From the NCBI GenBank assembly GCA_002699585.1, contig PABP01000038.1, forward strand, positions 310,001 to 374,000: 64,000 nucleotides of DNA, given 5' to 3'. Origin of the DNA: Anaerolineaceae bacterium. Lineage in GTDB: Bacteria > Chloroflexota > Anaerolineae > Aggregatilineales > Phototrophicaceae. Below, piece after piece: positions 21,237 to 27,998 of this stretch. The position numbers and the translations under genes are program-made. Numbering within the stretch: the stretch's first letter is position 1; every line of letters begins with the position of its first letter. The notes under the pieces are model-generated. The model did no database searches. It was given only the letters and a program-made list of their open reading frames with translations, and was not told the DNA's origin.

Positions 21237-22691
21237 TCAGTCGCCTGATTCCGGTTGATCCAGCCGAGGCACATCGACATACACATCGGTGCCGGTTTGC
21301 TGGCTAATGACATTAACAAGGGGCCGGCTCACACGGCGGCGGACCGCACGGCGGCGTTTTTGCTCCGGCGATAGACCTGCCGGGCGCGACATGACAATCA
21401 CACCAACCAATGCCACCAGCAGCAAGAAACCAACCATATTGACTGGCAACAGATAGTCCGTGAACAGGATTTGACCAATAGCCAGCGGGCTACCGAAACC
21501 AGCTAGCGTTTCAATCAACAGCACAGTCTGGTCGCTGTCGAGAAGAGTCGGACGCGGTTGGGCATCAGCCGTGGTCGGCTCGGTGGCGATGACAAACGTC
21601 TGCTCAGTCGCGGTCGAAATCGGATAGCCTGTAAGCCGCATAACAACGCTATCTTGAATGCTGCCCTGTGGGTCATTGGGCTGGATATAGCTATCGAAGT
21701 TGGTCATATCGACCACAGCCAGGTTGTAATCTTCCCCTTCGGGATAGGTCACAACGACTGGCTCGCCGCCATAGGTCAGGTTATCCGCAATGACCCGGTC
21801 AGCAATGACAATTTCGCGCTGAGCAACCAGTGGATCTTCTTCACTGGCACGCTCTGCGTAAACCACGTTGCCTTCTTCGTCACGGACATCGCGCTCAACC
21901 ACAGTGACACGCTGATCCGCGCCAAGGTCCACCAATGCCAGCGTCCGTTCCTGATCATAAGCGTTGAACGCAACAATACGTCCCTCGTCATCAGGTGTGT
22001 TGACGAATTCATTGGGCAACAAAGCGACATCCGGGAATGAACCCGTGTTGGTATCCAGGGTACCATATGCCAGTACGCTAAAGACATCGCCCGCTTCCAG
22101 ACTGATGGTCGGACTCATCGAAGGCGGCATCAGGGCTGTGTTACCCTCAGCCTGGGCCAGCATCACGCTATATTCACCTGCCGGAACCTCTATAAAGTCC
22201 GAGGCTTCGCCAAATGCCAGGTCTTCAATGACCAGTGGCTCTTCCAGGCTATCGCCTGTCAGCGTAACGTTAAGGTTGTCCAGGTTGGCACCGTGGACGA
22301 TGCGCACCTGTGGCAAACCTGGCTGCCCTTCTGGCAAGACCAAACCGCCGCCAATGACCATCGGAACAGCGATAGCAGCGATAAATGCAATCGCCAGCGC
22401 AGTCGCTGTACCCGTTAGCCAGCGAAAACGACGATCCGTATCCGTCGTTTGCTCAGCACCGAGCAACATAATAACGAAGAGAAACAGCACCATAATGGCG
22501 CCGGTATAGACGACAATCTGTACCATGCCGATGAACGGAGCATCCAGCATGAGGAACAGCATGGCGACGCAGCCAAAATTGCCAATCAAGAACAGCGCAC
22601 TATGTACAGCATTCTCACTGAGCAACATGCCCACAGCGAACAATACTGCCAGCCCGCCTATCGCCAAGAAAAAAGCGAGTTCAAGTCCCAT
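21237..22691 (-). CDS. nuoJ: NADH-quinone oxidoreductase subunit J with DUF4397-like insertion
   Basis: Membrane subunit (ND6 homologue) whose third helix takes part in coupling. Usual length is 165-210; this one is 484. Residues 1-116 hold four helices with the conserved MVQIVVYTGAIMVLFLFVIML pi-bulge segment, and residues 405-434 the last helix (LLFTDYLLP-like ILFTDYLLPVNMVGF). Between them, residues about 118-392 form a soluble insertion. Its first part (128-212) matches the DUF4397 pattern: VRIVHGANLDNLNVTLTG, LAFGEASDFIEVPAGEYSV, then SLEAGDVFSVLAYGTL. The rest may hold a second beta domain. The Arg-rich C-terminal tail should be cytoplasmic, which puts the insertion outside. Frame is continuous throughout. 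Confidence 0.95.
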   Translation of the reverse strand: MGLELAFFLAIGGLAVLFAVGMLLSENAVHSALFLIGNFGCVAMLFLMLDAPFIGMVQIVVYTGAIMVLFLFVIMLLGAEQTTDTDRRFRWLTGTATALAIAFIAAIAVPMVIGGGLVLPEGQPGLPQVRIVHGANLDNLNVTLTGDSLEEPLVIEDLAFGEASDFIEVPAGEYSVMLAQAEGNTALMPPSMSPTISLEAGDVFSVLAYGTLDTNTGSFPDVALLPNEFVNTPDDEGRIVAFNAYDQERTLALVDLGADQRVTVVERDVRDEEGNVVYAERASEEDPLVAQREIVIADRVIADNLTYGGEPVVVTYPEGEDYNLAVVDMTNFDSYIQPNDPQGSIQDSVVMRLTGYPISTATEQTFVIATEPTTADAQPRPTLLDSDQTVLLIETLAGFGSPLAIGQILFTDYLLPVNMVGFLLLVALVGVIVMSRPAGLSPEQKRRRAVRRRVSRPLVNVISQQTGTDVYVDVPRLDQPESGD

Positions 22692-23362: not shown

Positions 23363-24859
23363 TTAGTCCCCAGCAGGCTCTACCGGTTCGATTGCCAATT
23401 CATCAGAAGTGGGGGCTTCGCCACCGGCACTCCCCAATCCTTCCAGCAATGTCAGCAGCGCCTTCACCATCAGGAACGGCACTGCAATCAGGCCGCCGAT
23501 CAGGTTGAGCAGAACCCAACCGATACTGCGTGGTTCGCCTGTGACAACCGGATCGTTCATCAAGTCAACCGGATCCTGGGCTGTATCAGCATCCTGGTTT
23601 TCACCACGGAGGAACAGGAAGCCGCCAACAACGATAACCACGAAGAAGATCAAAGAGACAATGCCATATGCTGTCGAGCTTTGCGTTTCTTCGCCAAGAA
23701 CAACGGCAATCGATGTCCAGGCGACGGCCACCAGCGACAGCGGCAGCAGGACCTTCCAGCCAAGGGCCATCAGGCGGTCGTAGCGAATACGCGGTAGGGT
23801 CGCACGCACCCAGATGAACAGCGACAGGGCGATGAACACTTTCAGGATTAAGAACAGCGGGCCAAGTATGGGCACATTATCGACCGGGATAATGTGATAC
23901 CCACCAAAGAACATGGAAACGGCGATGACGCTAACAGCGATCATGCCGACATATTCGGCCATCATGAACATAGCGAACTTCATGCCACTATATTCGGTCA
24001 TGTAACCCGCAGTGAGTTCCTGCTCGGCTTCCGTCAGGTCAAAGGGCGCACGGCTGACTTCCGCGAAGAGGGTCAATACAAGAATGCCCGCCGCCAACGG
24101 GTTCTGGAAGACAAACCACTGCCAGATATTGCGCTGGGCATCAACAATGTCACCCAGGCTCATGCTGCCAGCGATAATGACCGGAACGGCCATTGCCAAA
24201 CCCAGGCTCAGTTCATAACTAATCATCTGGGCGCTGGCACGCAAACCACCAATCGTGGCGTATTTGTTGTTACTACCCCACCCGGCCAGGACCATACCGT
24301 AGGTAGCCAAACTGGTGACACCCAGCAGATAGAGCACACCCACGTTGATATCGGCCACAGCCAGCGGCACCTGATACCAGTTGCCATCGAACCAGGGCAC
24401 CAGAATATCGGGGCCAAATGGAATGACCGCGACGATGATGAGGACTGGCACCACCTTCAGAACGGGAGCAAGGTAGTAAACCACTTTGTCAACCTGGTCA
24501 GGAATGACGTCTTCTTTGAAGATCAGCTTGATCGCATCTGCCAGGGGCTGCAACAGACCGGCTGGGCCTGTCCGGTTGGGACCGACGCGATGTTGAATCC
24601 AGGCCAGCAGCTTACGTTCCCACAGCGTGGTATAAGCGAAGCCGGTCAGAATGACCACGACGAGGATCAAGCTGTAGATAATCGGATAGATTGTGCTGCA
24701 GCCGGAACTCGTGCTGCATTTGATGACAGCACCCGGATCAATCGCATTCGGATCGAACATTGTGGTCACCAGGCTGATGGTCACCAAGAGGCCACCTACC
24801 AGCACCGCAGCCAAAAGGATAAGGCCACCAATAATCCATACAAAACGCGGAATTCTCAT
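23363..24859 (-). CDS. nuoH: NADH-quinone oxidoreductase subunit H, extended at both ends
   Basis: Membrane subunit that forms the quinone chamber with NuoB/NuoD. It has 498 residues, against 320-350 usual. Core motifs seen: [64 protein letters not shown], and [25 protein letters not shown]. Additions: an N-terminal hydrophobic helix (about 7-33) followed by a loop with two Cys (Cys48, Cys54), before the usual first helix; and a C-terminal tail with a hydrophilic stretch (418-444), a further hydrophobic segment (446-468) and an acidic end. Catalytic and channel residues look normal. Confidence 0.96.
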
Positions 24860-27542: not shown

Positions 27543-27998
27543 TTACCTATCGCCATCAATACGAACAATATGCTTGTTTGCCAACCCCAGTAGGGCGCGG
27601 TCGCGCATCGTCTGCGCAACAAGACCCCACCTGGCGGAGTGAATCAAATCATCTGTCAGCGAAATTGCTCGCTCAAAATCCGCCTTCGCCAGGTGGTATT
27701 GCTTCTGCTTCAGGTATAGCTCCCCGCGCAGCACATACGCCGATGGTGCTTCGGGGTCGTGACGAATCGACTGGCTCAAGGCCTGGAGCTTTTGTTCGCT
27801 CGGCGCACTCAGGCCAATCCAATTGGCCAACCGCGCCAGCGGTCCTGTCCGTCGCTTTGCCACCCCATTGTCACGCGCCTGGATGATGTCGTCTTCGATA
27901 TAGTCATCGTCTAAACGGGCATCATCTACGACGTTGTCTTCAGAATTTTCTTCTTGAAACACATCGTCCGCTGACAACGGGTTTTCAGTGTGCGTCAT
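27543..27998 (-). CDS. Acidic TPR protein inside the nuo operon
   Basis: Not a standard complex I subunit. The 151-residue product has a very acidic first ~40 residues (many Asp and Glu), a short basic stretch (KRRTGPLARLANW), and then one or two TPR-like helix pairs (LQALSQSIRHDPEAPSAYVLRGELYLKQKQYHLAKADFERAISL-type, residues about 70-115). No signal peptide or membrane segment, so cytoplasmic. It starts only 3 nt after the nuoF stop (TAG, TGC, ATG), so it is translated with nuoF, and nuoG follows 85 bp later. The position between two NADH-module genes suggests an assembly or accessory factor of that module. The function is inference. Confidence 0.8.
   Translation of the reverse strand: MTHTENPLSADDVFQEENSEDNVVDDARLDDDYIEDDIIQARDNGVAKRRTGPLARLANWIGLSAPSEQKLQALSQSIRHDPEAPSAYVLRGELYLKQKQYHLAKADFERAISLTDDLIHSARWGLVAQTMRDRALLGLANKHIVRIDGDR

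Follow-up and report, generated by a model that had tools for sequence, protein, structure and literature searches.

The window, a stretch of 64,000 nucleotides from an Anaerolineaceae bacterium, carries a nuo cluster in which nuoJ lies beside nuoK, nuoI, nuoH and nuoL, an order that is kept in those long-NuoJ loci that cover these genes. Pfam identifies the immediate neighbours of nuoJ as a 4Fe-4S protein at the nuoI position on one side and Oxidored_q2 (NuoK) on the other. The NuoJ encoded here has an ordinary core, to which about 280 residues are added between TM4 and TM5 (Table 1). Its Oxidored_q3 match (122.3 bits against a cut-off of 33.2) is best over residues 18-109, and the helices of the predicted structure span residues 2-24, 28-49, 53-85, 87-112 and 402-435. 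Full-length NCBIfam models of subunit J reach at best 123.3 bits, below their cut-off of 192, and match in two stretches, a pattern to be expected when the match is interrupted by an insertion. An initial annotation of this DNA had proposed a large in-frame insertion between otherwise ordinary NuoJ helices, and the 484-residue frame, with its Oxidored_q3 core and a DUF4397 domain within, bears this out. The insertion had been placed at residues 118-392; its presence and its start hold, and its end lies nearer residue 398.

Table 1. Features of the nuo cluster in the window (all coordinates are window positions)
Feature	Coordinates	Strand	Basis
nuoJ, 484 aa	21237..22691	-	Pfam: Oxidored_q3, 122.3 bits; DUF4397, 37.8 bits
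NuoJ inserted stretch, residues 118-398	21498..22340	-	Alignments with long relatives; absent from short NuoJ of families f2, f5 and f6
Lobe 1, DUF4397, residues 128-244	21960..22310	-	Pfam, over cut-off; genome-wide search; strands of the model
Lobe 2, diverged DUF4397-like beta-sandwich (predicted), residues ~245-395 (first strand from ~236)	21507..21959	-	Strands of the model; profile match to lobe 1
NuoL residues 221-346, acidic/His-rich insert before the GKSAQ helix	19772..20149	-	Alignment with outgroups; family lengths
NuoH residues 1-39, extra N-terminal segment resembling one transmembrane helix (by eye)	24743..24859	-	Alignment; family lengths
NuoH residues 425-498, C-terminal extension	23366..23587	-	Alignment; family lengths

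Judged from its sequence, the window protein is a NuoJ into which a DUF4397 module has been inserted, which gives a known enzyme a new domain architecture. Searches of open-licence papers, in which absence is no proof, brought up no description of this NuoJ insertion among the hits listed, and none of the open-licence papers on DUF4397 concerns complex I as far as the beginnings of their abstracts show. In long NuoJ, the tail that follows TM5 (residues ~438-484; 21237-21380, reverse strand) contains a conserved motif of the RR-x-VSRPL type. The ND6 subunit of Paracoccus is described with a 33-residue tail that reaches the hydrophilic domain (PMC11522691).

The first half of the insertion belongs to DUF4397, the family that the initial annotation had named for residues 128-212. 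Pfam places the family above its cut-off (37.8 against 30.6 bits), with an extent that reaches residue 244. When the genome was searched in all six frames, DUF4397 gave 14 matches, 13 of them over the cut-off, and the stretch of lobe 1 scored 41.8 bits. DUF4397 and Oxidored_q3 are both found at E<=0.01 in all 30 NuoJ of alignment A1 (loci L009-L038, the window included), which were the best-scoring loci and are therefore no random sample. Pfam reports a single DUF4397 stretch in the window NuoJ and none over lobe 2. Comparison with hhalign nevertheless aligned lobe 2 with lobe 1 at a probability of 87.7 (61 columns, 7% identity), as against 0.1 for either lobe compared with the NuoJ core. The second half of the insertion hence looks like a diverged second DUF4397-like lobe. 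Both lobes are present in all 49 aligned long NuoJ.

Of six other DUF4397 proteins encoded by the same genome, four also carry Fasciclin, one SH3_3 and one neither (Pfam); their N termini, judged by eye, resemble export signals. The profile of lobe 1 matches all six of these distinct proteins and that of lobe 2 matches five, weakly. In the L001 and L002 proteins the two profiles hit adjacent stretches, ordered as in NuoJ. These profiles were run on frames from own-genome loci already found by DUF4397, a small and chosen set. We infer that the lobes derive from a surface-protein cassette.

AlphaFold2 models were obtained for the window NuoJ (mdc944ba1012d) and for the NuoJ of locus L047 (m84f83fbd413b), which are 36% identical to each other. 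Both were built on the same 20 aligned proteins, with NuoJ modelled alone. The insertion is predicted to fold as two immunoglobulin-like beta-sandwich lobes, so that the beta-sandwich anticipated by the initial annotation appears in both models. The window model has a mean pLDDT of 72.6 and a pTM of 0.58. Ten-residue means of pLDDT are 85-93 over residues 131-180 and 201-250 (61 at 181-190) and 90-93 over 301-330 and 351-370; they are 50-73 over 261-300, middling (about 50-82) in the helices that flank the insertion and near 45-50 in the tail. The L047 model shows the same two lobes with a mean pLDDT of 73.0.

The best solved match of both models is the extracellular domain of the mammalian transporter PepT2 (5a9h), with Z 15.2 and rmsd 2.9 over 182 of 189 residues for the window model and Z 16.1 and rmsd 2.8 over 177 of 189 residues for L047. 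Foldseek lists PepT1 in its first row for the window model (E 2.7e-9). The next fold matches are HGSNAT chains, over lobe 2 (Z up to 10.9 for the window model and 12.6 for L047), and the C-terminal domain of AlgF matches the L047 model with Z 10.7 over 89 residues. At the level of sequence, a profile of the insertion alone, searched against PDB sequences, found no PepT chain at E<=10, and the alginate protein AlgF appeared in that search at a non-significant E of 0.062. A profile of the whole NuoJ did reach PepT2 at E 0.0014, through profile positions 68-241, which take in membrane-helix columns. A sequence relation of the lobes to PepT is unsupported for these reasons, and the NuoJ lobes, though alike in fold, are not filed in the PepT group. 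Given that the modelled tandem DUF4397 lobes and the PepT1/PepT2 domain are alike in fold and in lobe arrangement, a remote relation is possible. Right about the DUF4397 insertion, the initial annotation had not recognized that there is a second lobe, that the fold resembles the PepT domain or that the NuoL loop, described below, is lengthened.

The insertion is predicted to lie on the outer side of the membrane. The topology of Escherichia coli NuoJ is listed as N-out/C-in (PMC4604451), which with five helices puts the TM4-TM5 loop outside. In the window the insertion contains 50 Asp/Glu against 11 Lys/Arg and TM5 is followed by a tail rich in Lys/Arg; acidic residues outnumber basic ones in the insertion of all 49 aligned long NuoJ. 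The listed topology and this charge pattern agree with the outer placement first proposed from the basic C-terminal tail. Cysteines in the insertion number zero in 35 sequences, two in 13 and four in one, and are never odd, many of the sequences being close relatives. Even counts are expected of a part lying outside, where disulfides would form.

The long NuoJ is widespread in the order. The window NuoJ found a match in 60 of 61 genomes (its own and 60 relatives), the frame of the main match being mostly 405-519 aa in families f1, f3, f4, f7 and f8 and about 157-241 aa in f2, f5 and f6. Among the matches listed, many of the 61 genomes encode, besides the main match, a short NuoJ of about 180 aa. 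So does that of the window, where a second nuo cluster (L136, C23:327500-346500) includes a NuoJ of 182 aa and a NuoL whose loop is short, at 24 residues; the two clusters allow an internal comparison within one cell. Alignment A1, searched against 154 genomes of the order, matched through the insertion in 130, counted by hand as matches that start at model position <=6 and end at >=389 of 423. In five others the insertion is in pieces or runs up to a contig end (G056, G058, G312, G313 and G314). Nine genomes, all of f2, f5 or f6, have a short NuoJ (G037, G040, G041, G044, G047, G050, G060, G384 and G387), three are ambiguous (G010, G305 and G328) and seven gave no match at E<=1e-20 (G002, G007, G018, G048, G055, G385 and G386). 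None of the five long-NuoJ families is without the insertion as a whole family. Moreover, a same-genus genome assembled as a single contig (G001) has a long NuoJ that is 77% identical to that of the window. An assembly error, which the initial annotation had named as one outcome that would overturn its claim, is ruled out by this genome and by the 130 relatives that share the insertion.

No long NuoJ was seen outside the order in samples of the class and the phylum. In the class sample (249 genomes), all 15 listed genomes of the order, the window's own included, have frames of at least 410 aa, every listed match in other orders is confined to residues 1-133, and 12 genomes have no match. In the phylum sample (400 genomes), which is less sensitive because at most four candidates were scored per genome, two genomes matched A1 at E<=1e-60, namely the window's own and one of its family. 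In genome_contigs, where a single-protein scan gave no match, 479 stretches encode a NuoJ relative, and the best 80 of these were analysed. Among these 80, a long NuoJ is present in 19 (L039-L056 and L098), all titled Chloroflexota, and a short one, which counted from the selected start codon has 169-189 aa, in 29 (L057-L085), likewise titled Chloroflexota. The other 32 have open frames of 172-347 aa and are mostly of other phyla by title. Two giant frames outside the order, G096 (736 aa) and G265 (684 aa), were rejected as candidates; each holds an ordinary short NuoJ preceded by extra residues that by eye resemble non-coding or out-of-frame sequence. Further longer open frames outside the order, going by frame length alone, include G071 (340), G260 (300) and L118 (347).

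A tree of 40 sequences, made by a quick method from the core columns of NuoM, I, K, H and L with NuoJ left out, groups all 20 rows with a long NuoJ together as a single clade (SH-aLRT 100). Its sister consists of three rows of f5/f6, and two rows of f2 branch deeper. Since the long-NuoJ rows form one clade, the simplest reading is that the insertion was gained once, in the ancestor of the five families, and then kept. Going by the counts, loss might also account for the pattern.

The insertion changes far more quickly than the core. The NuoJ of the window and that of the same-genus relative are 91% identical over residues 1-112 and 71% over 118-392. When 48 other long NuoJ are compared with that of the window, identity has a median of 60% for the core and 26% for the insertion. 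The insertion varies in length from 212 to 294 residues, and few of its positions are conserved. Fast divergence and few conserved positions fit a loosely constrained part as well as they fit a docking arm. They would suit, as would the single origin by descent, a passenger: a surface-protein cassette that landed in an outer loop tolerant of insertions and has been inherited since while doing little or nothing. Against this, both lobes persist in 49 of 49 rows, no long family is without the insertion (single genomes being ambiguous or unmatched), and in the same-genus pair dN of the insertion is low relative to dS (LWL85, 0.21 and 2.46, with dS saturated and NG86 giving no value). We regard it as quite unlikely that the lobes are such a passenger.

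Two further subunits of this complex I, NuoL and NuoH, carry additions as well. The NuoL insert is of low complexity and missing from all eight aligned outgroup rows with a short NuoJ. The region corresponding to window residues 221-387 has 167 residues in the window, among them 43 Asp/Glu, 11 His and 2 Lys/Arg. It has 89-158 in eight other long rows (f1 or of unnamed family), 60-73 in four rows of f3, f4, f7 and f8, and 49-69 in five rows of f2, f5 and f6. The second NuoL copy of the window's genome has 24 residues there, and five outgroup rows have 9-11. Among the long rows this loop is both His-rich and strongly acidic; one f2 row, with 4 Asp/Glu and no His, differs. As f2, f5 and f6 have a longer NuoL loop without NuoJ lobes, the loop predates the insertion and the two have separate origins. 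From the topology of NuoL we take the insert to lie in the TMH6-7 loop. The TMH6-7 loop of Paracoccus ND5 is described as periplasmic (PMC11522691). The NuoL insert is probably on the same outer side as the NuoJ lobes, where, as a guess, it perhaps buffers metal or protons. In NuoH, the extra N-terminal hydrophobic segment is seen in f1-type rows and the C-terminal extension, with a conserved DDPIVTGERR-like stretch, in these and in f4 and f8 rows; the NuoH lengths are perhaps overlong because starts were set at the first Met. The NuoH of the f3 row looks odd.

The nuo cluster also encodes a 151-aa protein (27543-27998, reverse strand) with weak, below-cut-off matches to TPR-type families. Of the 19 long-NuoJ loci from genome_contigs, 17 encode a relative of it, the exceptions L045 and L047 being short contigs; further relatives occur in L124, L129, L130, L133 and L135. 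It may be an assembly factor or accessory subunit.

The additions to three subunits could act together as a brace, the lobes, the NuoL loop and the NuoH extensions giving the membrane arm internal support at its outer face, for which hairpins and extensions of core subunits in other complexes I are a precedent. That NuoL and NuoH are lengthened too and that the lobe pair is kept in 49 of 49 rows argue for such a brace. A tight internal interface would not be expected to diverge so much faster than the core, however, and the NuoL loop, already long in f2, f5 and f6 without NuoJ lobes, shares no joint origin with them. Overall, a brace seems somewhat unlikely.

Our main reading, which we hold at a probability of about 0.45, is that a two-lobed outer DUF4397 module on NuoJ was gained once and serves as a docking arm. 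The anatomy of the module is close to certain and its docking role tentative; for the lobes we prefer docking, then a brace, then a passenger. As a docking arm, the lobes would hold complex I to an outer partner, which could be a wall or surface polymer, an exported protein or another respiratory complex. They would take no part in pumping, just as the PepT1/PepT2 domain binds trypsin without being needed for transport. Indeed, the PepT extracellular domain is described as functionally independent and as binding trypsin, and in PepT2 the Km for Gly-Sar is unchanged when the domain is swapped or deleted (PMC4597091). The same result weighs against lobes that regulate coupling by holding TM4-TM5 and so limiting the movements of NuoJ. 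This role would be in keeping with their location in NuoJ, since part of TMH3 of the equivalent mammalian subunit is reported to rotate (PMC8357420), but nothing here links the lobes to TM3, and we consider it very improbable.

If the lobes are a docking arm, complex I might be tied into the envelope, with adhesion-type lobes of NuoJ anchoring or clustering the pump at the wall or at a partner complex, perhaps helped by the acidic, His-rich NuoL loop. We rate this envelope tie as rather unlikely. Were it true, the respiratory chain would be positioned from outside by its own core subunits and not by accessory proteins. NuoJ is a core subunit near the coupling machinery; that it carries a folded module of ~30 kDa through most of an order implies that the outer face of complex I can be re-equipped by domain insertion. 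Docking of bacterial complex I to the envelope or to a partner complex thereby becomes testable.

The window NuoJ can be set beside four known systems. It shares the core helices, the gene order and the Pfam match with canonical NuoJ/ND6 (Oxidored_q3; E. coli 3rko_J and Thermus 4he8_J), and NuoJ/ND6 chains are the top matches of its whole-protein profile among PDB sequences. The matched chains, of 161-252 residues, are without the ~280-residue addition between TM4 and TM5. With the DUF4397 (PF14344) surface proteins of its own genome it has in common a lobe 1 that scores over the cut-off and a lobe pair that is equally ordered in two of them. Those proteins look exported and five of six carry Fasciclin or SH3_3, whereas the NuoJ pair sits inside a membrane subunit. 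The extracellular domain of PepT1 and PepT2 (5a9h and 5a9d) likewise consists of two immunoglobulin-like lobes in the outer loop of a transport protein; it differs in its host protein and, with identities of 11-14%, in sequence, and trypsin binding is not expected of NuoJ. Finally, Paracoccus complex I is described as having additions to core subunits on its periplasmic side (PMC11522691), namely the TMH6-7 hairpins of ND4 and ND5 and the TMH14-15 insertion of ND5. These too are outer additions, and the NuoL insert by our reading lies in a matching loop, but they are hairpins and disordered stretches located elsewhere, whereas the window NuoJ is predicted to carry two folded lobes.
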